From NCBI RefSeq assembly GCF_016907515.1, contig NZ_JAFBBY010000001.1, positions 496,001-560,000 on the forward strand: a stretch of DNA of 64,000 nt, read 5' to 3'. The stretch comes from Nocardioides nitrophenolicus (GTDB lineage Bacteria > Actinomycetota > Actinomycetes > Propionibacteriales > Nocardioidaceae). This document shows positions 1 to 53,757 of the stretch, one piece after another. Numbering within the stretch: the first letter of the stretch is position 1; the number at the start of each line of letters is the position of its first letter. A model generated the notes under the pieces. It was given only the letters and a program-made list of their open reading frames with translations. It had not been told where the DNA came from and made no database searches. Position numbers and translations under genes: made by a program.

Positions 1-279
1 CGCGACGACGTGGCGATCCTGCGCGTCGAGCAGCTCTACCCCTGGCCGACCGAGGCCGTGCAGGCCGAGCTCGCGAAGTACCCGAACGCCACCGTGAAGT
101 GGGTCCAGGACGAGCCCTACAACCAGGGCCCGTGGCCGTCGTTCTACCTGAACGTCGTCCCGCACCTCGGCCGGCCCATCCAGCCCGTCACCCGGGCCGC
201 GTCCTCCACCACGGCCGTCGGCACGGCCAAGCGCCACCAGGAGGAGGCCAAGGTCCTCATCGGCGAGGCCTTCGCCTGA
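1..279 (+). CDS. kgd: 2-oxoglutarate dehydrogenase E1 component, C-terminal end (partial)
   Basis: Only the last 92 codons are present; the frame is open to the left edge. The E1 subunit decarboxylates 2-oxoglutarate in the TCA cycle with thiamine diphosphate; in actinobacteria it is often fused to an E2-like domain (Kgd). What is visible is the transketolase-like C-terminal domain: VAILRVEQLYPWP followed by WVQDEPYNQGPW and an HLGRPIQPVTRAASSTTAVG stretch, matching the end of the SucA/Kgd family. Whether the missing part has the Kgd fusion cannot be seen. The stop overlaps the next gene (TGATG), so the two are probably co-translated. Confidence 0.9.
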   Translation, partial: RDDVAILRVEQLYPWPTEAVQAELAKYPNATVKWVQDEPYNQGPWPSFYLNVVPHLGRPIQPVTRAASSTTAVGTAKRHQEEAKVLIGEAFA

Positions 280-455
280 TGTACTTCACCGACCGCGGGA
301 TCGAGGAGCTCGAGCGGCGCCGGGGCGACGAGGAGGTCACCCTGGCCTGGCTCGGCGAGCGGCTCCAGGAGTTCGTCGACACCCACCCGGAGTTCGAGAC
401 GGCCGTCGAGCGGTTCGCCACCTGGCTGGCCCGCCTCGACGACCCCGAGGACTGA
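279..455 (+). CDS. DUF6104-type small protein
   Basis: A 58-residue protein beginning MYFTDRGIEELERRRG and ending in a charged WLARLDDPED tail; acidic, soluble, apparently helical, with no signal peptide or membrane segment. It resembles the short actinobacterial proteins grouped as DUF6104, commonly found directly after the oxoglutarate dehydrogenase gene. The ATG overlaps the upstream stop, which fixes the start and implies translational coupling with kgd. Function unknown. Transcription probably ends in the hairpin about 35 bp downstream. Confidence 0.75.
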   Translation: MYFTDRGIEELERRRGDEEVTLAWLGERLQEFVDTHPEFETAVERFATWLARLDDPED

Positions 456-590
456 CGCCGACCCGGCACGAAGTTGCGTGAGAATCGCGCCGACCCGGCA
501 GAAAGTTCTGCCGGGTCGGCGGCTTTTTCAGGCAAGTTTCTGCCGGGTCAGCGCAATTCCTGAGCCAGTTTCTGCCGGGTCGGCGCGACC
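456..590. repeat. 32-bp periodic inverted repeat array, copy A
   Basis: Five copies of a core close to CCGACCCGGCAGAAA recur at exactly 32-bp spacing. Two read on the plus strand (cores from 458 and 490). Three read on the minus strand (their complements begin at 509, 541 and 573). The orientation flips at a central hairpin. Each 32-bp unit has a conserved half of about 16 bp and a variable half that tends to end in ATCGCG or TTGCG. The array lies between the convergent DUF6104 and MMPL genes and runs into the last codons of the MMPL gene. A second array of the same design lies at 32556-32736. Not a known element to me. Confidence 0.8.
489..528 (+). terminator. Rho-independent terminator at centre of the array
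   Basis: Arms GCCGACCCGGCAGAA (489-503) and its exact complement (506-520) form a 15-bp stem, followed by GGC and five T residues. It would end the kgd/DUF6104 transcript. Without the T run it could also act on the opposing MMPL transcript. The arms are the two repeat cores that face each other in the array. Confidence 0.8.
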
Positions 591-2692
591 GACGGCACCG
601 ACTCGGAAAGGCCGACCCGGCGGTGCAGGGCCCGCAGCGGCCCCGGCGCCCACCAGGAGCGCTCGCCCAGGAGCCGGACGCTCGCCGGGAGGAGTACGCC
701 GCGGACCAGGGTGGCGTCGATCAGGATGGCCAGCCCGGTGCCGAGGCCGAAGAACTGGATGAAGCTGACCGAGCTCACCAAGAAGGCGAAGAAGCTGATC
801 GCGATCAGCGCCGCCGCCGTGCTGACGATCCGGCCGGTGTGGGCCAGGCCGTGGATCATCGCCTCGTCGTTGGCCAGCCCCCGGTCGCGCATCTCCTTGA
901 TCCGGCTCATCACGAACACCTCGTAGTCCATCGACAGCCCGAAGGCGACGCAGAACAGCAGCACCATCATCGAGCTGTCCATCGGCTGCGGCGTGAAGCC
1001 GAGCACCCCGGACAGGTGGCCGTCCTGGAACACCCACACCATCGCACCGAGGGTGGCGCCCAGCCCAACCGCGTTGAGGACCAGCGCCCGCAGCGGCTGG
1101 ACCACGCTGCCGGTGAACAGGAACAGGATCACGAGCGTCGTCAGCACCAGCCAGCCCGCCACCAGCGGCAGCCGGTCGCCGATCCCCGTCATCTGGTCGT
1201 GCAGCTCGGCGCTCGCACCACCGACCAGCGCCTCGGCGCCGCCCGGCGCCGGCACCGCCCGTACCTCGTCGACCAGGGCCCGCGCGGCCGCGGACATCGG
1301 GTCGAGGTCGGTGACCACCGCGACCAGGTCGGCGTCCCGGCCGGCCTGGACGTCCACCCGGACCACGTCGGGCAGCTGGCCCAACGTCGCGGCGTACGAC
1401 GTCAGCTCGGCCTCCGGAACACTCGTGGTCGTGACCACCTGGATCGGGTGGGTGCCGTCGCCGGCGAAGGACGAGCGCAGTACGTCACCGGCCTGTCGGC
1501 TGGTCGCACTGGTGGGCAGTACGCGGTCGTCCGGCGTACCGAGCTCGATGCCGGCGAGGGGGATCGCCACGACCAGCAGGCCGGCGAGCACGGGCAGCGC
1601 GCTGAGCAGCGGCCGCCGCGCCACGAACCGGGCCAGGCGGGCCCAGGCCGGTGCCTCCTCGCCACGGATGCCACGCACCCGCGGCACCCGCCAGGCGTCG
1701 ATCCGGTCGCCGAGCAGGCTGATGCCCGCCGGGAGGACGACGATCGCGGCGAAGGCGGTGATCAGCATGACGCCGATGCCGGCGTAGGCGAACGAGCGCA
1801 GGAAGTACATCGGGAAGACCAGCAGTGCGGCCAGCGCCACCGCGACCGTGGTCGCGCTGAAGGCGATGGTGCGGCCCGCGGTCTCCACCGCTCGGCGTAC
1901 GGCGTCCGGGTGGGCGCGTCCCGCAGCCCGCTCCTCGCGCACCCGGGCCACCATCAGCAGCCCGTAGTCGACGGCGAGGCCGAGCCCGAGGCCGGTGGTG
2001 AGGTTGACGGCGTAGATCGAGACGTCGGTGACGGAGCCGAGGATCGACAGCTCGGCGAAGGTGCCGAAGATCGCGGCGACGCCGACCGCGAGGGTGACCA
2101 GCGCACCGACGACATTGCCGAACGCGAGCACGAGCAGCACCAGGATGAGCGGGATCGCGATGCTCTCGGCCAACCCGAGGTCCTGGCCGATCCGGGCGCC
2201 GACCTCCTCGCCGACCACCTCGCCGCCGCCGACGTCGACGCTCAGCGGCCCGTCGGCCCCGGCGTACGCGTCGATCACGGCGCCCGGGTCCGCCTCCGTG
2301 CCGGGCGCGAGCGAGGCCGTGACCAGGGCGTAGCGACCGTCGGTCGAGCGCATCGGACCGGCCCGGGTGTCGAAGTACGACGCCACGTCGGCCAGCGCCG
2401 GGTCCGCACGGAGCCGCTCGGTCAGCGCGGCTCCCGCGCGGGCCGCGGCAGGGGCGTCGATGTCGCCGCCGACGGCCTCGACGACGAACACGTAGTCGGC
2501 TCCCCCGGCGAACCGCTCCTCGAGCAGGCTCGCGGCGCGACTGCTCTCCGAGTCGGGGTCGTCGAAGCCGGCCGTCTGCAGCTTGCCGAAGGCGCCGACG
2601 CCGACGACCGCCGCGAGCACCACCCCCAGCAGACCGAGGCCGAGCACCGTGCGCGCCCGCCTCGTCACCACTCCACCTATCCAGCTGAACAT
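548..2692 (-). CDS. MMPL family membrane transporter
   Basis: A 714-residue RND-superfamily protein of the MMPL type, which export lipids or drugs across the actinobacterial membrane using the proton gradient. The N terminus MFSWIGGVVTRRARTVLG enters the first membrane helix, then a large extracytoplasmic loop, a cluster of helices near residues 190-350, a second loop, and a second cluster near 520-680; this two-fold symmetry is the family layout. The start at 2692 has GGAGGA eight bases upstream. It is divergent from a TetR gene, its probable repressor. The extreme C terminus (APTRQKLAQELR) is encoded by the 32-bp repeat array, so the natural end of the protein has apparently been replaced or extended by repeat sequence. 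Confidence 0.88.
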   Translation of the reverse strand: MFSWIGGVVTRRARTVLGLGLLGVVLAAVVGVGAFGKLQTAGFDDPDSESSRAASLLEERFAGGADYVFVVEAVGGDIDAPAAARAGAALTERLRADPALADVASYFDTRAGPMRSTDGRYALVTASLAPGTEADPGAVIDAYAGADGPLSVDVGGGEVVGEEVGARIGQDLGLAESIAIPLILVLLVLAFGNVVGALVTLAVGVAAIFGTFAELSILGSVTDVSIYAVNLTTGLGLGLAVDYGLLMVARVREERAAGRAHPDAVRRAVETAGRTIAFSATTVAVALAALLVFPMYFLRSFAYAGIGVMLITAFAAIVVLPAGISLLGDRIDAWRVPRVRGIRGEEAPAWARLARFVARRPLLSALPVLAGLLVVAIPLAGIELGTPDDRVLPTSATSRQAGDVLRSSFAGDGTHPIQVVTTTSVPEAELTSYAATLGQLPDVVRVDVQAGRDADLVAVVTDLDPMSAAARALVDEVRAVPAPGGAEALVGGASAELHDQMTGIGDRLPLVAGWLVLTTLVILFLFTGSVVQPLRALVLNAVGLGATLGAMVWVFQDGHLSGVLGFTPQPMDSSMMVLLFCVAFGLSMDYEVFVMSRIKEMRDRGLANDEAMIHGLAHTGRIVSTAAALIAISFFAFLVSSVSFIQFFGLGTGLAILIDATLVRGVLLPASVRLLGERSWWAPGPLRALHRRVGLSESVPSVAPTRQKLAQELR

Positions 2693-2764
2693 CGCGCTCC
2701 TCCAATGTGTGCGCCCGTAAACTTTGTGGGTGTTAACTTGGCATGGATGTGTACGGGTGTCAAC
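2693..2764. promoter_or_regulatory. Divergent promoter/operator region, MMPL and TetR
   Basis: A short AT-richer stretch between two divergent starts. Direct repeats GGGTGTTAAC (2728-2737) and GGGTGTCAAC (2755-2764) lie 27 bp apart, the second abutting the TetR ATG, and CCCGTA (2715-2720) pairs with TACGGG (2752-2757). These are candidate operator half-sites for the adjacent TetR protein; assignment is by position only. Confidence 0.45.
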
Positions 2765-3415
2765 ATGTTGCCCGTGACGACCTCGAAGCGGAGCTACCAC
2801 CACGGCGACCTGCGCAATGCGCTGATCCGGGCGGCGGCCGAGCTGGCCGCGACCGGCGGCCCGGACGCGGTCACCATCCGCGGCGCGGCACGCGAGGTGG
2901 GCGTCACCCCGACCGCGGCGTACCGGCACTTCGAGAACCAGGCCGACCTCCTCGAGGCCGCTCGTGCCCTGGCCATGGACGGCATGGTCGCCGCGATGGC
3001 CGACTATCTCGCCGAGGTGCCGACCCAGGGCGACCCCGTCACCCTGGCCGTGGAGCGGCTGCGCTCGACCGGGCGCGGCTACGTCAGGTTCGCGATCGAG
3101 GAGCCGGGGGTGTTCCGCACCTGCTTCACCGGCGGCCTGCGCGACCCCGGCAGCGACGGGATGGGCGAGCCGGCGCCGTACGTCCTGCTCGGGGAGATGC
3201 TCGACCAGCTCGTCGCGGTCGGCTACCTCGCCCCGGAGGACCGGCCCGGCGCGGAGGCCGGTCCGTGGGCCGCGGTCCACGGCCTGGCGATGCTGCTCAC
3301 CGACGGGCCACTGTCCGACCTGGGCCCGGCGGAGCGGGAGACCGCGCTCGAGCGCACCCTCGACCTGGTCAGCCGCGGACTGGCGACCGGCCCGCGCGGG
3401 CGCGCCACCCACTAG
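2765..3415 (+). CDS. TetR/AcrR family transcriptional regulator
   Basis: 216 residues. The N-terminal helix-turn-helix is clear: YHHGDLRNALIRAAAELAATGGPDAVTIRGAAREVGVTPTAAYRHF region, with the recognition helix VTPTAAYRHFENQADLL near residues 50-65. The C-terminal ligand-binding half contains a TetR_C-type domain (FRTCFTGG and similar segments). It is transcribed away from the MMPL transporter gene, the usual arrangement for a repressor that senses the exporter's substrate. The ATG at 2765 was preferred; a GTG at 2774 is the alternative. Its TAG stop at 3413 is part of the -10 of the next gene. Confidence 0.85.
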   Translation: MLPVTTSKRSYHHGDLRNALIRAAAELAATGGPDAVTIRGAAREVGVTPTAAYRHFENQADLLEAARALAMDGMVAAMADYLAEVPTQGDPVTLAVERLRSTGRGYVRFAIEEPGVFRTCFTGGLRDPGSDGMGEPAPYVLLGEMLDQLVAVGYLAPEDRPGAEAGPWAAVHGLAMLLTDGPLSDLGPAERETALERTLDLVSRGLATGPRGRATH

Positions 3416-3418
3416 TGT
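3413..3418 (+). promoter_or_regulatory. -10 hexamer TAGTGT made from the TetR stop codon
   Basis: TAGTGT begins with the TAG stop of the TetR gene and is followed by 7 bases and the GTG of the next gene at 3426. This is the TANNNT-N6/7-start layout of leaderless actinobacterial transcripts. Confidence 0.5.
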
Positions 3419-3425
3419 CACCCGC

Positions 3426-4091
3426 GTGAGCGAGGAGCTGATCGACTACGCGGCCTGGGGCGAGCGGTTCTTCGCCACCGCCGTGACCGCCGAGCGGGTG
3501 CTCGCCGGCGTCAACGTGCTGGCCGGGCGCCCGATCGACGTCGGGCCCCTCGGCGTCGGACCGGGCCGGATCGCCAAGGTCACCGCACGCGGGACCATCG
3601 GCACCGCCACCGGCGAGCGGGTCGGGGCCGACCCGGTGTCCTTCCACGTCGACCTGCCGGTGACCTTGAAGTTCAGCATCGACCTCGGCATGGACAAGCA
3701 GCACTTCGATGCCGAGATCACCGTGCCGCTCGTCATCACCGCCCACGGCCGAGCCGACCTGGCCATCGCGCTCGACGTGACGCCGCCGCCCGCCACCCAG
3801 GTCGTCGTACGACTCAAGGCGCAGGGCCTGCGCGCCTCGCTGACCAGCAAGGCGGCCAACGTCGAGGGCGAGCTGCGCCGGTTCGTGGCGAAGTACGTCG
3901 CCAAGGAGCTCGAGAAGCCCTACGTCCGCCAGGCGACGGTCATCGACGTCGCCGGCGCCGTCGAGAAGGCCGCGGCCGGGCTCGGACCCCGCGAGCAGAG
4001 CCCGATCGCCGACGAGCTGACCGACGACCTGCCGGCCGCCATGGAGGCCGAGCTCGAGCACACCGCGCAGCTCTTCCTGGAGGACCAGTGA
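3426..4091 (+). CDS. conserved hypothetical protein
   Basis: 221 residues, GTG start chosen because a TAGTGT -10 ends 7 bases upstream, giving a leaderless mRNA. No signal peptide or membrane helix. The middle (residues about 55-145) alternates beta-strand-like segments (SFHVDLPVTLKFSIDLG, ITVPLVITAHG), and the last third is helical and charged (RRFVAKYVAKELEKPY). I do not recognise the family; the strand-rich centre recalls lipid-binding or SMP-like folds, but that is a guess. It overlaps the acetoacetate decarboxylase-like gene by GTGA, so the two probably act together. Confidence 0.6.
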   Translation: MSEELIDYAAWGERFFATAVTAERVLAGVNVLAGRPIDVGPLGVGPGRIAKVTARGTIGTATGERVGADPVSFHVDLPVTLKFSIDLGMDKQHFDAEITVPLVITAHGRADLAIALDVTPPPATQVVVRLKAQGLRASLTSKAANVEGELRRFVAKYVAKELEKPYVRQATVIDVAGAVEKAAAGLGPREQSPIADELTDDLPAAMEAELEHTAQLFLEDQ

Positions 4092-4693: not shown

Positions 4694-4708
4694 GTGGAAC
4701 GCGGGAGG

Positions 4709-4773
4709 TTGCGGTTTGGTCCCAAACCGCAACATTTCGGGTCCGGGGCACGCGGTTTGGTCCCAAACCGCAG
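4709..4773. repeat. two copies of a 20-24 nt palindrome (probable bidirectional terminators)
   Basis: The palindrome GCGGTTTGGTCCCAAACCGC occurs at 4711-4730 and again at 4752-4771, 41 bp apart. The first extends to 12-base arms (TTGCGGTTTGG / CCAAACCGCAA with a TC loop). It lies between convergent genes, so either transcript would form hairpins here. No T run follows. The two copies are identical over 20 bases while the spacer is unrelated. Confidence 0.65.
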
Positions 4774-10017: not shown

Positions 10018-10023
10018 TTCTGT

Positions 10024-10087
10024 CACTTGTCGGGCGTTGCAACGCCCGACAAGTGCAGGAATCGCCGGTCGACCGGCGATTCCTGCA
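10024..10087. repeat. two back-to-back perfect palindromes between convergent genes
   Basis: 10024-10055 is a perfect 32-nt palindrome (CACTTGTCGGGCGTTG and its exact complement, no loop base). 10054-10087 is a perfect 34-nt palindrome (TGCAGGAATCGCCGGTC and its complement). They share the TG at 10054-10055. Both lie between convergent stops at 10017 and 10103, so they can terminate transcription from either side or extrude as adjacent cruciforms. Neither has a T tract. Confidence 0.75.
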
Positions 10088-10102
10088 CCCCACGCCGAGC
10101 GG

Positions 10103-18161: not shown

Positions 18162-18941
18162 ATGCGCAGGCTCGTCTCCGCTGGCGTCATCGCGATCACC
18201 TCGCTCGCGCTCGCCACGCCCGCCCTGACGTCCACCGCCGCGGCGGCCCCGGCCACCGCTGACACCGCCGTCGTGGCCGCCAAGGTCAAGGCCGGCAAGT
18301 TCAAGATCAAGAAGTCGGCCCCCGGCGTCCAGCCCGGCATCAGCAAGCTGGTCCTCACGTCCAAGGGCCTCAGGGGCTCCGGCAAGGTCAAGTACACGAT
18401 CACCGGCGACAACGGCGCCGTGATCAAGGGCAAGGCCAAGGTCAAGAAGGGCAAGGCCAAGTACGTCGTGCCGGCCCTCGGCACCGGCCACTACAAGGTC
18501 AAGGCGAAGTTCAAGGGCCGCAAGGGCAAGACCAAGTTCGAGGTCTACGACTCGGCGATGACCCTCAGCACCACCGCGGTGAGCTGCTTCCGCAGCGACT
18601 TCCGCTCGCCGTACACCAAGAAGAGCACCCAGCTGTCCGGCAGCGTGAAGTACAAGGGCGCCCCGGCGACCTCGGGCTACGTCGACGTCTACCAGAACGG
18701 CAACGCCGCCGGTGGCTCGTCGTCGCCGTACCTGCTGCGCTTCGCGAGCATCAACCCGGCCAACGGCACCTTCAACTTCACCACCGGCTTCTGCTCGGCC
18801 GTCATCAACGGCGGCACCGGCAGCGCCCTCAAGGCGGGCCTGCCCAACGGGCAGTACCAGTTCCAGGCGTACTACACCAAGGACGCCGGCTACGACGACT
18901 ACTTCTCGTCGAACTACATCACGGTGACCGTGGCGGACTGA
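18162..18941 (+). CDS. secreted beta-sandwich (Ig-like) protein
   Basis: 259 residues. Signal peptide MRRLVSAGVIAITSLALATPALTSTAAAAPA, cleaved near 30. The mature part has two sections. The first is a lysine-rich Ig-like domain of bacterial type (GKFKIKKSAPGVQPG, LVLTSKGLRGSGKVKYTI, VVPALGTGHYKVKAKF, KFEVYD; about 45-135). The second, about 140-259, has two cysteines (VSCFRSDF, TGFCSAV), probably disulfide-linked, and a strand-rich end (YQFQAYYTKDAGYDDYFSSNYI). The first section resembles Big_3_5/Ig-like repeats of surface proteins. AAGGAG precedes the start; a strong terminator follows. Confidence 0.7.
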   Translation: MRRLVSAGVIAITSLALATPALTSTAAAAPATADTAVVAAKVKAGKFKIKKSAPGVQPGISKLVLTSKGLRGSGKVKYTITGDNGAVIKGKAKVKKGKAKYVVPALGTGHYKVKAKFKGRKGKTKFEVYDSAMTLSTTAVSCFRSDFRSPYTKKSTQLSGSVKYKGAPATSGYVDVYQNGNAAGGSSSPYLLRFASINPANGTFNFTTGFCSAVINGGTGSALKAGLPNGQYQFQAYYTKDAGYDDYFSSNYITVTVAD

Positions 18942-18956
18942 TCGCCCACGACCCAG

Positions 18957-19000
18957 CGACGGCCCGGTCCCCTCTCGGGGGGATCGGGCCGTCGGCGTTC
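18957..19000 (+). terminator. terminator after secreted Ig-like protein
   Basis: CGACGGCCCG pairs with CGGGCCGTCG and the inner TCCCC with GGGGA, around a small loop, followed by GCGTTCTC. The hairpin lies between convergent genes. Confidence 0.7.
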
Positions 19001-19009
19001 TCGGGAGGG

Positions 19010-19435
19010 CTACTCGTCGTCGCCGGGACGGTCCTCCAGTGCCGCGATGGTGGCGGGGTGGAGCACCGCGGCCACGACGACCAGGGCCACCGCGGCCAGC
19101 CCGAGCGCGACGAGCAGCTCCTCGCGCAGGTTCCAGGCGAGACCGAGGACGATCAGCTGGGTGATCAGCACCGGGCCGCGCGCCCAGCCGTGGCGGCGCC
19201 ACAGCGCGAGGGCGGCGCCGACCAGCACCACGCCGTACGCCGCGAAGAAGACCGCGGTCGACAGGCCGAACCCGAGCCGCTCGGAGGACACGCTGGCCAG
19301 CTCCAGGATCGCGAGGATGAGCAGCACCAGCCCCTGGACCGCGGCCAGCGAGGCGGCCACGGTGAGCTGCGGAGGTCGGTCGGACGGGTGGTCGGACGGG
19401 TGGTCGGACGGGTGGTCGAGGGGCCCTTCGGTCAC
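19010..19435 (-). CDS. integral membrane protein with N-terminal DHPS repeats
   Basis: 141 residues. The N terminus contains three tandem copies of Asp-His-Pro-Ser (12-bp DNA repeat at about 19379-19421), then four membrane helices (AASLAAVQGLVLLILAILEL, TAVFFAAYGVVLVGAALAL, GPVLITQLIVLGLAWNL, VALGLAAVALVVVAAVLH) and a short acidic tail (EDRPGDDE). This matches uncharacterised four-helix actinobacterial membrane proteins. No functional motif is seen. The repeat count is likely to vary between strains. Confidence 0.65.
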   Translation of the reverse strand: MTEGPLDHPSDHPSDHPSDRPPQLTVAASLAAVQGLVLLILAILELASVSSERLGFGLSTAVFFAAYGVVLVGAALALWRRHGWARGPVLITQLIVLGLAWNLREELLVALGLAAVALVVVAAVLHPATIAALEDRPGDDE

Positions 19436-24572: not shown

Positions 24573-25049
24573 GTGGCATTAACCCAGCAGGACGTCGAGC
24601 GGCGGCTCGACCAGAACCACAACGACATCGCGGGCGCCTACGAGTTGCTCACCGAGGTCAAGACGACCGTCGACGGACACACCGTCGACCTCGCCGAGCT
24701 CAAGACCACCGTCGACGGACACACCGTCGACCTCGCCGAGCTCAAGACCACCGTCGACGGACACACCGTCGACCTCGCCGAGCTCAAGACCACCGTCGAC
24801 GGACACACCGTCGACCTCGCCGAGCTCAAGACCGACATCGGGGTCATCAAGACCGACGTGGCCGAGCTCAAGACCACCGTCAACGGACACACCGTCGACC
24901 TCGCCGAGCTCAAGGCCGATACCGGGGTCATCAAGACCGACGTGGCCGAGCTCAAGACGACCGTCAACGGACACACCGTCGACCTCGCCGACATCAAGGA
25001 GACCCTGACCGAGGTGCTCCGCCGGCTCCCCGAACCACCGGCGGCCTGA
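24573..25049 (+). CDS. coiled-coil protein made of 14-residue repeats
   Basis: 158 residues, GTG start with AAGGAG nine bases upstream and a TAGGGT -10 at 24542-24547. After a 29-residue helical head (QQDVERRLDQNHNDIAGAYELL) come eight consecutive 14-residue units, the commonest being KTTVDGHTVDLAEL; variants are KTTVNGHTVDLAEL, KTDIGVIKTDVAEL and KADTGVIKTDVAEL. Hydrophobic residues at V4, V9 and L11/L14 fit two heptads per unit, so a long parallel coiled coil is expected. The C terminus ends KETLTEVLRRLPEPPAA. No signal peptide. It resembles bacterial and phage coiled-coil stalks but has no phage context. Function unknown. Confidence 0.7.
   Translation: MALTQQDVERRLDQNHNDIAGAYELLTEVKTTVDGHTVDLAELKTTVDGHTVDLAELKTTVDGHTVDLAELKTTVDGHTVDLAELKTDIGVIKTDVAELKTTVNGHTVDLAELKADTGVIKTDVAELKTTVNGHTVDLADIKETLTEVLRRLPEPPAA
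24660..24995 (+). repeat. eight tandem 42-bp units within the coiled-coil gene
   Basis: Units begin at 24660, 24702, 24744, 24786, 24828, 24870, 24912 and 24954. The first four encode identical peptides and differ by one base at most (ACG versus ACC); units 5 and 7 form a second type and units 6 and 8 a third. The near-identity at DNA level indicates recent expansion by slippage or unequal crossing-over. Confidence 0.9.
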
Positions 25050-25126
25050 CCCCGCGCGAGCACCCGGATTTCACCGCTGGGTCCCGGGCTGAGAGAATGG
25101 CTCGATTCACGACTTCAGGAGGAACC

Positions 25127-25201
25127 ATGGGCAAGACCGGCCGCAAGCGCCGCGCGCGCCGCAAGAAGGGCGCGAACCACGGCAAGCGCCCCAACAGCTG
25201 A
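25127..25201 (+). CDS. ribosomal protein bL37
   Basis: 24 residues, MGKTGRKRRARRKKGANHGKRPNS, of which the C-terminal ANHGKRPN and the arginine/lysine block match the tiny actinobacterial large-subunit protein bL37 described from mycobacterial ribosome structures (24 residues there too). AGGAGG lies six bases before the ATG, a strong ribosome site for so short a frame. A terminator follows the stop by 13 bp. The gene sits beside the rshA/sigH pair. Easily missed by gene finders because of its size. Confidence 0.85.
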   Translation: MGKTGRKRRARRKKGANHGKRPNS

Positions 25202-25214
25202 GCGCAGGCACCGA

Positions 25215-25256
25215 CGAACCCCCGAGACCCTCGCGGTCCGGGGGTTCGGCTGTTCT
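25215..25256 (+). terminator. terminator after bL37
   Basis: CGAACCCCCG (25215-25224) pairs with CGGGGGTTCG (25239-25248) around a 14-base loop, followed by GCTGTTCT. It lies between convergent genes. Confidence 0.7.
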
Positions 25257-25319
25257 CCGCGCCCGGCTCCGGGCGCGGCCACAGCCCAGGAGGGGCCGAT
25301 CCGGCGGCGGGTGCCGGGC

Positions 25320-25625
25320 TCAGCCCTCGGTGATCCGGACCTGGATCTGCTGGATCTGGATCCGGACCCGCTCGCGCAGCTCGGCCGGGGCGGTCTCGCC
25401 GCACGAGCGGGCGACGACCGCCTTGACCGTGCGCTGGAGGTCGTAGCGCTCCAGACAGGGGCTGCAGGAGTCGATGTGGGCCCGGACCACGGCACAGTCG
25501 CCGGCCTCGAGCTCGTTGTCGATCAGCCGCACGATGCGCTCGAGGAAGTCGGCGCACTCGGCGTTGCTGGGGTCGTCCGAGACGTGCACGTGGTCGTGAC
25601 CGGCGTGGTCGAAGGACTCGGACAT
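25320..25625 (-). CDS. rshA: zinc-binding redox-sensitive anti-sigma factor (RsrA/RshA)
   Basis: 101 residues. A ZAS-domain core is seen: ECADFLERIVRLIDNELEAGDC, then RAHIDSCSPCLERYDLQ with the HxxxCxxC zinc motif near residues 50-57. In this family the zinc-bound thiols form a disulfide under oxidative stress and release the sigma factor. The N terminus is His/Asp-rich (HAGHDHVHVSDD). The ATG overlaps the sigH stop (TGATG), so it is the dedicated antagonist of the next gene. The same pair and order occur in M. tuberculosis (rshA-sigH) and Streptomyces (rsrA-sigR). Confidence 0.9.
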   Translation of the reverse strand: MSESFDHAGHDHVHVSDDPSNAECADFLERIVRLIDNELEAGDCAVVRAHIDSCSPCLERYDLQRTVKAVVARSCGETAPAELRERVRIQIQQIQVRITEG

Positions 25626-32123: not shown

Positions 32124-32555
32124 ATGCGCATCGCTGACGTGCTCCAGTCGAAGTCGCTTCGCGACGTGGTCACCATCAGTCCCGAGGCGGGGGTCCGCGA
32201 GCTCCTCGCCGTGCTCTCCGAGCACAACATCGGCGCGGTGGTGGTGAGCGCCGACGGCGCCTCCCTCGACGGGATCGTGTCCGAGCGCGACGTCGTACGC
32301 CGCCTCCACAGCGACGGCACGGTCATCAACAACGTCGTCTCGGCGATCATGACCACCGAGGTCAGCACCTGCTCCCCCGACGACGACCTCGACGAGGTGC
32401 TCGCGGTGATGACCGAGCGCCGGTTCCGCCACATCCCCGCGACCGACGGCGATCGGGTCGTCGGGATCGTGAGCATCGGCGACCTGGTCAAGCACAAGAT
32501 CGACCAGTTGCAGTTCGAGCGCGACCAGCTCGACTCCTACGTGCACCAGTCCTGA
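32124..32555 (+). CDS. CBS-pair domain protein
   Basis: 143 residues made of two CBS motifs and little else: VVTISPEAGVRELLAVLSEHNIGAVVVSADGASLDGIVSERDVVRRL (about 15-62) and ISTEVSTCSPDDDLDEVLAVMTERRFRHIPATDGDRVVGIVSIGDLVKHKI region (about 75-128), then a helical tail. Stand-alone CBS pairs bind adenine nucleotides and act as energy sensors for partner proteins; the partner is not evident here. The ATG is leaderless after TAACCT. The stop abuts the second 32-bp repeat array. Confidence 0.85.
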   Translation: MRIADVLQSKSLRDVVTISPEAGVRELLAVLSEHNIGAVVVSADGASLDGIVSERDVVRRLHSDGTVINNVVSAIMTTEVSTCSPDDDLDEVLAVMTERRFRHIPATDGDRVVGIVSIGDLVKHKIDQLQFERDQLDSYVHQS

Positions 32556-32736
32556 CCGACCCGGCACGAACTGGCTCCCGGATCCCGCCGACCCGGCAGA
32601 AACTCGTCTGCTGAACGCGCTGACCCGGCAGAAAGTGTCCCGCGCACGAGCCACTTTCTGCCGGGTCGGCGCGATCTCGGGGCCACGTTCTGCCGGGTCG
32701 GCGCGAATCCGGAGCTACTTTCTGACGGGTCGCGCG
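32556..32736. repeat. 32-bp periodic inverted repeat array, copy B
   Basis: Six units of the same family as the array at 456-590. Plus-strand cores begin at 32556, 32588 and 32620; minus-strand cores begin (as complements) at 32659, 32691 and 32723. Spacing is 32 bp every time within each half. Cores vary slightly (CCGACCCGGCACGAA, CCGACCCGGCAGAAA, CTGACCCGGCAGAAA). The array fills the whole gap between the convergent CBS and hydrolase genes, begins directly after the CBS stop, and overlaps the last codons of the hydrolase. Each gene's transcript meets the units in the same orientation. Confidence 0.85.
32622..32667. terminator. central hairpin of array B, bidirectional terminator candidate
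   Basis: GACCCGGCAGAAAGTG (32622-32637) and its exact complement (32652-32667) form a 16-bp stem around 14 bases. Symmetric, no T tract; placed between convergent stops. Confidence 0.65.
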
Positions 32737-33695
32737 TGCCGGACCACCCCGTCGACGGCGGCGAGGAAGACCGGCCGCCACCGGTGTACGTCGAAGACCA
32801 CCGACGCGTGGCCACCCGGCGTCTCGTGCACGGTGGCGCCGGGGATCGCGGCGGCGAGGGCGCGCTGGCGGGCGGTCGGGATGGCGTGGTCGCGAGCGGT
32901 GACCACCACGGCCGTGGGTACGTCGATCTCGCCGAGCCAGGGGCGGGCGTCGAAGCGGCCGAGGGCGCCGAGCACCTCGGGCATCGCCCAGGCGCTGGTG
33001 GCGCGGAACTCGCCCCAGGCCCAGGTCGACATCTCGGCGCCGAGGTGCCGGTCGTCGGCGAGGGCCGCGCGCACGTCCAGCACCCGCTCCAGGTAGCGCC
33101 CGCGGAAGCGGTCGTTGACCAGCCCGAGCACCGGGTAGAACATCGCGTCGCCGACGCTCCCCCGCCAGTACGCGGCGGTCGAGGCGAGCACCAGGCCGGC
33201 GGTCCGGTCACGGTGCCGGCGCCAGAAGAGCTGGGCGAGCGCGCCGCCCATGGAGTACCCGACGGCGACCACCGCCCCGATCCCGAGGACGTCGAGCGCC
33301 GCGGCCGCGTCGTCGACGCACTCCTCGAGGGAGAACCGCTCCGAGGCGATGCCGCGACCGTGCCAGCGCTGGTCGAGCATCACCACCCGGTGCGTACGGC
33401 GCAGCTCGTCGAGGGTGCTGAACCAGGTGAGGTACGACGTGGTGGCCAGCCCGTGGAACAGCAGCAGCGTCGGCGCGCCCGGCTCCGGCTCGCCGGTGTC
33501 GACGACGAAGGTCTCGCCGCGCCCGGGCAGGTCGAGCATCCGGCCCTCGGGGAGCGTGGGCAGCTCGGGGAAGCGCTGGGTACGCCGGATGCCGGCGCGC
33601 ACGCCGTGGACGGCGACCCCGCCGGCGGTACGGCCGACGAGCAGGCCGGCGGACAGGCCGGCGGACAGGCCGGCGGACAGGAGCGCGCGGGTCAC
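32715..33695 (-). CDS. alpha/beta hydrolase
   Basis: 326 residues. Canonical lipase/esterase features: LLLFHGLATTSYLTWFSTL, nucleophile elbow VGYSMGGALAQLFWRR near residue 150, VVVTARDHAIP acid loop near 272 and PGGHASVVFD histidine near 303. GTG start overlapping the WS/DGAT stop by 4 bp. The N terminus carries a degenerate 12-bp tandem repeat (LSAGLSAGLSAGLL). The final residues RPVRK are encoded by repeat array B. Last gene of the lipid operon; probably hydrolyses an acyl ester made or used by its neighbours. Confidence 0.82.
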   Translation of the reverse strand: MTRALLSAGLSAGLSAGLLVGRTAGGVAVHGVRAGIRRTQRFPELPTLPEGRMLDLPGRGETFVVDTGEPEPGAPTLLLFHGLATTSYLTWFSTLDELRRTHRVVMLDQRWHGRGIASERFSLEECVDDAAAALDVLGIGAVVAVGYSMGGALAQLFWRRHRDRTAGLVLASTAAYWRGSVGDAMFYPVLGLVNDRFRGRYLERVLDVRAALADDRHLGAEMSTWAWGEFRATSAWAMPEVLGALGRFDARPWLGEIDVPTAVVVTARDHAIPTARQRALAAAIPGATVHETPGGHASVVFDVHRWRPVFLAAVDGVVRHARPVRK

Positions 33696-53676: not shown

Positions 53677-53698
53677 CGGCTCGGCCACTCGCTGAGGA

Positions 53699-53757
53699 TA
53701 GTCCCTGCTCAAAAGCACCGGATACCGGCCGGACTTGGTGCTTTTGAGCAGGGACTA
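53699..53757. repeat. 59-nt inverted repeat with 21-bp perfect arms
   Basis: Arms 53699-53719 and 53737-53757 are exact complements; the 17-nt spacer contains CCGGCCGG. The arms include the AT-richer CTCAAAAGCACC. It lies between two minus-strand genes, 12 bp from the DUF445 stop, so it can act as that gene's terminator; it also occupies the 5' region of the S4 gene. Confidence 0.75.

Follow-up and report, generated by a model that had tools for sequence, protein, structure and literature searches.

The 64,000-nt window of the Nocardioides nitrophenolicus genome analyzed here contains two arrays of 32-bp repeat units, array A (456..590) and array B (32554..32736), each lying between convergent predicted genes and each reversing its orientation at the center. 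Analysis of the whole genome (5,815,017 bases) and of its relatives associates these arrays with a gene whose product joins an AbiEi-like DNA-binding domain to a nuclease domain of the EDxHD type. The arrays are probably the DNA sites of a repeat system driven by this protein, of which they would at the same time be the scattered, non-autonomous members. We hold with high confidence that they are the cognate sites of the protein; for the nuclease being the driver of their spread and homogenization, the chances are about even. All gene calls come from our own simple codon-usage predictor, and "predicted gene" is used in this sense throughout.

The core GACCCGGCAGAA occurs genome-wide in 201 exact copies (98+103), against one (1+0) for the same letters reversed, and its same-strand neighbors, when any distance of 22-42 bp is allowed, stand at exactly 32 bp in 100 out of 100 cases. 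With a 15-base core, up to two mismatches and neighbors within 15-60 bp, 127 of 128 distances are 32 bp and one is 31 bp. Six relatives were searched and pairs were found in five of them, 46 out of 50 at 32 bp and four at 31 or 33 bp. The first-pass annotation of the window had taken its two arrays for a defined element, a view that these counts bear out in the genome and extend to the relatives. The profile of 237 units exhibits a strongly conserved CCGACCCGGCAGAAA, followed by T at position 17, GC at positions 19-20 and then a loose part. The division of each unit into a conserved and a variable half, also made at first pass, therefore stands for the former, while the latter is itself partly conserved. 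In the Marmoricola genome G098, the second part of the unit is TTCAC and the 32-bp spacing is kept. Within the window alone, a 12-base core with two mismatches returns 19 matches against 9.8 expected, a figure reached by 2 of 100 shuffles, and an Rfam scan of the window reported no family reaching its threshold. CRISPR was set aside as a candidate on account of the orientation flip and of the short, partly conserved variable part, no cas search being made.

The anatomy of the arrays was tabulated for 49 groups in 46 loci of this genome. Arrays of diverged cores only and singles past the first 100 listed core places fall outside this sample, units with 3-4 mismatches are counted only where a better unit lies in 32-bp register with them, and the spacing figures are those of the exact and two-mismatch core counts given above, not of this table. 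Both orientations are present in 40 groups, 38 of which place all forward units before all reverse ones, the remaining two (L049 and L056) being interleaved. The neighboring predicted genes are convergent for 36 of the 49 groups, compared with 11 of the 62 adjacent gene pairs in the window. The orientation rule and the location at convergent gene ends, proposed from two arrays, are supported. Two lone cores within predicted genes, L033 (window 60482) and L047, look like chance matches and were kept among the 49. By hand count, 64 of the 83 gene ends facing an array lie at -4 to +15 bp from the outermost core, and for 27 gene ends of the same table the stop codon is located within this core (C-TGA-CCC).

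The distances that separate the last forward core from the first reverse one follow a rule of their own. In 90 cases, 42 here and 48 in five relatives, they measure 15-16 (17 cases), 19 (1), 24-26 (4), 34-37 (59), 45-47 (7), 77 (1) and 85 bp (1), given that the search in relatives spanned 15-45 bp, that some arrays are common to relatives by descent, and that two of the 46-47 bp cases (L042 and L043) may represent 15 bp plus one worn unit. Steps of ~10 bases are what proteins seated on one face of the DNA need, and not what an RNA hairpin needs, and the system therefore very likely acts on DNA rather than RNA. The early suggestion of a protein reading a three-turn periodicity is strengthened both by this helical phasing and by the linked gene, which encodes a DNA-binding domain.

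This gene stands out at L070, where the forward and reverse halves of an array are 1.1 kb apart and enclose a single gene; likewise, one gene lies between the forward and reverse halves at L116, L086, and L108, three loci of other genomes with the same core. The nuclease gene (4,794,719-4,795,690 of the genome) is a single close copy within its own array. Pfam analysis of its product reports AbiEi_4, with REase_MTES_1575 below the cut-off. Among 28 family members at E <= 0.01, AbiEi_4 is found in 21, REase_MTES_1575 in 24 and MerR in one, with neither a HUH tyrosine (Y1) transposase nor any further family at this threshold, and all 28 match the PADLOC AbiEi profiles. REase_MTES_1575 is named in a survey of HEPN domains, in the part of that text available (PMC3710099). 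The likeness to AbiEi, in fold and in profiles, extends over residues 1-206. The nuclease-like domain resembles the EDxHD homing endonuclease I-Bth0305I and is most like a homing endonuclease among the folds ranked by Foldseek, to which the structure comparison extends, other folds being possible. In the family alignment (A1, from which L138, L143, and L161 were excluded as having a broken or odd frame, and to which L116 was added), the residues E, D, H, and D are invariant and presumably correspond to those of a Vsr-like catalytic domain; they are conserved candidate active-site residues. A profile search of the PDB sequences returned nothing below E 0.2.

A homologue at E <= 1e-30 is present in 223 of 294 genomes within the family, and 10 of the 346 genomes of a phylum set (our own included) match at E <= 1e-25. 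A scan of viral contigs, confined to the close pattern, found no relative; a plasmid set returned five records at 30-36 percent identity and a phage set one record, matching over 38 percent of the length. Since these phage and plasmid matches are weak, the close family looks chromosomal. The two neighbors of the gene in this genome encode an FAD-binding protein and a short-chain dehydrogenase, with no AbiEii toxin gene among these two. With neighbors defined as genes that end no more than 600 bp away, the nuclease gene stands between convergent ones in 29 of 30 loci, with nine neighbor pairs, one of them common to 16 of the 30; by eye, one side of the gene is occupied by what we take to be RbpA.

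The same 30 loci, which are those of the best homologues, one per genome (L125 for our own gene and L133-L161), were compared over 300 bp on each side of the gene with 200 dinucleotide shuffles per locus. A significant tandem period is present in 28 of the 30 flanks (32 bp in 22, 31 bp in 3, 22 bp in 2, and 21 bp in 1), inverted matches across the gene are significant in 25, and units occur on both sides of the gene everywhere except at L148. Most of these genes come with an array of their own. Most of the cores derived from these loci have CCGA(G/C)(T/C)CGGC in common and differ afterwards, and close relatives share cores. A pattern of two CCGANYCGGC cores 20-42 bp apart returns as many as 273 matches in a genome, where the control gives 0-8, and the dispersed units carry the core of the resident gene. 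In G078, both the gene-side and the solo units read CCGACCCGGCA(G/C)C(A/G)ATGTGC or near forms, and in G249, CCGAGTCGGCGCATCTTGCCCG stands at the gene while the same or near forms are found, among the matches listed, across many contigs. G146 has two genes, one between GCGCCA(C/G)TTCC units and the other between GCATATCTC-type units, both with a 22-bp period, and solo arrays of both core kinds are scattered, among the matches listed, across its chromosome. In 168 genomes of the same genus, at least 10 core pairs are present in 57 of the 79 that have a homologue at E <= 1e-65 and in 13 of the remaining 89 (odds ratio 15, Spearman 0.57), a cut that was set after viewing the data and an association that counts genomes as independent, ignoring kinship. 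Farther away, the period is significant in six of 29 phylum-set loci from other genomes (L163, L164, L170, L178, L184, and L191), four of which have inverted matches as well (L163, L164, L184, and L191); in L170 and L178, the period seems to stem from coding repeats.

The history of the array sites was followed through eight genomes (our own, G000, with G105, G204, G243, G265, G270, G280, and G286) at the ends of four genes, presumably those of a rhomboid protein, a CBS-domain protein, SecA, and P5CDH. At the rhomboid end, arrays with the CCGACCCGGCAGAAA core are present in G000, G204, and G286, none in G105, G265, and G280, and G243 and G270 have a long palindrome of another kind. Where the array is present, it begins at the TGA and the sequence then rejoins CCCCAGGGTT, a segment that in G265 and G280 lies within ~10 bases after the TGA. 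The element found after the rhomboid stop codon at L214 (G243) and L218 (G270), at the site of the array, is long and palindromic, with TTGTAACTAAGGGTTAC arms. At the CBS end, G000 and G286 have a CCGACCCGGCAGAAA-type core and G265 and G270 the core proper to them, while the other four genomes have none. At the SecA end, G000 and G286 again have a CCGACCCGGCAGAAA-type core, G243 and G265 have another one, G204 has a different palindrome, and G105, G270, and G280 have none. At the P5CDH end, G000 and G204 have a CCGACCCGGCAGAAA-type core and G265 and G280 have other arrays, with no clear array in G105, G243, G270, and G286. These other arrays, after the P5CDH stop codon at L196 (G265) and L193 (G280), represent two further inverted tandem families with unrelated cores, GAGTCGTCGCTTGTGACC and CGTCGAGTTGCC. 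The orthologous ends being filled, empty or otherwise filled, and the nuclease gene itself lying between convergent neighbors, arrays and genes are gained and lost at convergent gene ends, the core changing with the gene.

In the mechanism that we propose, the winged-helix domains of the protein would bind units on one face of the DNA, a dimer being seated on an inverted pair ~50-60 bp long. To the subsequent steps we give less weight: the nuclease may break DNA at or near the array centers, and repair from another copy may then spread the arrays and hold their cores to a common sequence. Insertion would be least harmful directly at the stop codons of convergent genes.

Several points weigh against this explanation. 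Binding, cleavage, and mobility of the system are all inferred from sequence comparison. Some 40 two-orientation arrays can hardly coexist with a freely cutting enzyme, so that a restraint must be assumed, which might be tight control, nicking only, or action at certain times only. Measured against random window positions, a control since superseded by the per-locus shuffles, only 8 of the 30 loci exceed the 99th percentile for the period (64) and none the maximum (137, probably due to a coding repeat in the window); for inverted matches, the corresponding numbers are 18 and 14. Among 36 more distant homologues, the period is found in only eight and inverted matches in 14, and outside the family L163 has a period of ~38 bp with an unrelated core and L164 one of 21 bp. 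Fewer than 10 core pairs are present in 22 of the 79 genomes with a strong homologue. Conversely, a homologue at E <= 1e-30 is lacking from G220, G227, and G245, each with at least 10 core pairs, and from G201, with 13 cores; arrays can therefore persist without a close gene. Lastly, the homologue at G177:C1:1776844-1777593 matches up to residue 250 and then diverges while its arrays remain, and is possibly a decaying copy.

A possible function suggested at first pass was that of a termination or collision device. As an alternative to the system proposed here, RNA hairpins or protein roadblocks would stop both converging transcripts and the nuclease gene would merely make use of the arrays. 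This reading draws on the convergent gene ends, with stop codons touching the arrays, on the strong folding of the arrays (z -8.7 and -11.3) and on one terminator-like site in array A. However, the mark of an intrinsic terminator, a G+C hairpin followed by a T run, is rare: a T-rich run (at least five T in six) follows the hairpin at only 6 of 92 sides, although array A itself has one. The inverted distances follow the DNA helix, a phasing for which RNA has no need, the orthologous gene ends of relatives are array-free or have arrays of another kind, and cores differ from gene to gene and go with the gene. Termination accounts neither for these gene-linked cores nor for the phasing. As the main function, we consider it unlikely; termination or roadblocking is plausible as a side effect at most.

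A second alternative is true homing, the arrays being intact homing sites, the gene having homed into one of them and the solo arrays being unfilled targets. The EDxHD homing endonucleases, as represented by I-Bth0305I, share with our protein the Vsr-like catalytic domain with its E, D, H, and D, and the gene sits between forward and reverse units, at the place of an intact center; moreover, I-Bth0305I dimerizes on a target of nearly 60 bp, according to the available portion of a review. In contrast to I-Bth0305I, the DNA-binding part is here AbiEi-like and the gene stands alone between convergent genes, with its weak phage and plasmid matches. Uninterrupted and presumably cleavable sites are also numerous in a genome that has a single close gene copy, a coexistence that homing does not predict, and the origin of the solo arrays is left unexplained. 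Homing in the strict sense is accordingly doubtful.

The closest parallel to the nuclease-run system proposed here is offered by the repetitive extragenic palindromes (REPs), or bacterial interspersed mosaic elements (BIMEs), with their REP-associated tyrosine transposases (RAYTs). The portions available of two reports describe the RAYT gene as always flanked by two inverted REPs (PMC2817692), and the REPs as located mostly between unidirectional and convergent genes and as possible suppliers of stop codons (PMC3733652). Our system resembles them by the gene placed between two inverted repeat copies, by the many dispersed intergenic solo copies, by the frequent location between convergent genes, and by repeats that may supply stop codons. 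It differs by its enzyme, which is of the AbiEi-EDxHD type and not a HUH/Y1 transposase, by the 237-unit profile, which has no GTAG or CGTC end, and by the tandem units that flank the flip on both sides, spaced in register with the helix (32, 31, 22 or 21 bp). With an unrelated enzyme and without such an end, it is not a member of the REP/RAYT group; we read it as a REP/RAYT-like repeat system in which a homing-endonuclease-like enzyme replaces the HUH transposase. The shared habits also leave room for arrays that are an independent REP-like family, moved by another mobilizer (a RAYT or an insertion sequence, genes for which the genome was not searched) and used by the nuclease genes as landing sites. 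An outside mobilizer would not predict, however, that cores go with the gene, nor that two genes in one genome have two cores, and the missing GTAG or CGTC end also speaks against it; this explanation is very improbable. As to AbiE, a type IV toxin-antitoxin system, the likeness covers the AbiEi fold and profile of residues 1-206, whereas the fused nuclease-like domain and the lack of AbiEii among the two neighbors set our gene apart. A decoy or defense role, in which arrays would keep the nuclease inactive and its targets would be array-free DNA such as incoming phage DNA, would suit the AbiEi-like domain, the PADLOC matches of all members and the coexistence of two-orientation arrays with the nuclease, yet it has the least to recommend it, given the absence of a partner toxin gene from these two neighbors and the tie of array positions to gene ends.

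Besides its close copy, this genome has seven distant paralogues of the nuclease gene (L126-L132), 27-35 percent identical over the matched part; a single genome may thus contain eight such genes. In the shuffle test, inverted matches across the gene are significant for every paralogue, and by eye they are palindromes of a family proper to that gene. L128, L129, and L131 have no Pfam match and are linked to the family by profile comparison (96-97 percent probability). In a survey of ~354 kb of this genome, partly overlapping, four palindrome families covering five paralogue genes recur away from their gene, and the L127 and L128 palindromes are found at their own gene only. The window contains two L131-family palindromes 41 bp apart (4699..4771), an L126-family composite palindrome that adjoins the left stop codon (10022..10088), and an L129-family palindrome (53697..53757), none with an assigned strand; the first two of these three solo sites lie between convergent predicted genes and the third between two minus-strand ones. 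Further solo copies of the L126 family are found in L045 and L066. L130 and L132 share a core, with solo copies in L052, L065, L077 (2328-2440), and L081, and a single half in L038. L077 also contains, at G000 3456735-3456816, five GACCCGGCACGA copies mostly in 15-bp steps, which form a separate short tandem family. The window has three inverted repeats with complete complementarity over 18 bp or more and a separation of no more than 150 bp, which come from array A, the L129 family, and the L126 family.

In the window, matches were scored to the 15-bp CCGACCCGGCAGAAA with up to two mismatches. Array A comprises five units in 32-bp steps, with cores at 458 and 490 on the plus strand and at 505, 537, and 569 on the minus strand; the array as such has no strand, and neither has array B. 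The first-pass annotation gave the same plus-strand positions and steps, its minus-strand positions being 4 bp higher owing to another anchor, and it placed a perfect hairpin at each flip, which is correct for array A (15 pairs) and not for array B, where the central hairpin is imperfect. That of array A (488..521) is perfect over 15 bp, with 15 bp from core to core and GCTTTTT after it on the plus strand. Array A directly abuts the stop codon (453-455) of the left predicted gene (279..455, plus strand), and the right one (548..2647, minus strand) has its stop codon within a reverse unit (C-TGA-CCC), both genes converging on the array. Array B has cores at 32556, 32588, and 32620 (plus) and at 32655, 32687, and 32719 (minus), with 35 bp from forward to reverse. 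Two predicted genes converge on it, 32124..32555 (plus), which we take to be CBS-domain-like, and 32715..33695 (minus), presumably hydrolase-like, and the 3' site of the former is empty or otherwise filled in several relatives. Two other convergent predicted gene ends of the window, 18941-19010 and 25049-25320, are array-free and by eye display ordinary short G+C hairpins, which suits them as termination controls from the same genome. Elsewhere in the genome, at L074 (G000 4968500-4973500, ~2550-3500), a forward array is followed by ~1 kb of non-coding tandem repeats of, by eye, ~200-250 bp, and a reverse array is lacking.

A word search of the main text of a 2025 REP survey (PMC12306157) returned neither Nocardioides nor endonuclease, and the best matches listed from the openly licensed literature include no description of the core, of Nocardioides repeats, or of a link between AbiEi/DUF559/EDxHD proteins and repeats. 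The system of gene and repeat provides a class of 3'-end palindromes, otherwise read as terminators, with a candidate for their cognate protein and with a mechanism open to testing. The many pairs of gene and core, including two in one genome, form a ready set for learning how AbiEi-type domains read DNA and supply numerous nucleases whose predicted specificities are related yet distinct. These findings suggest a second origin of the REP-like way of life, based on a nuclease of unrelated descent. On balanced odds, the AbiEi-EDxHD proteins and their repeats would constitute a class of their own among the selfish elements of chromosomes, a counterpart of REP/RAYT driven by a nuclease, common in Nocardioides and relatives and present in other Actinomycetota, in which break-and-copy repair would place helically phased arrays at convergent gene ends and the arrays of a genome would conform to the specificity of the nuclease resident there.
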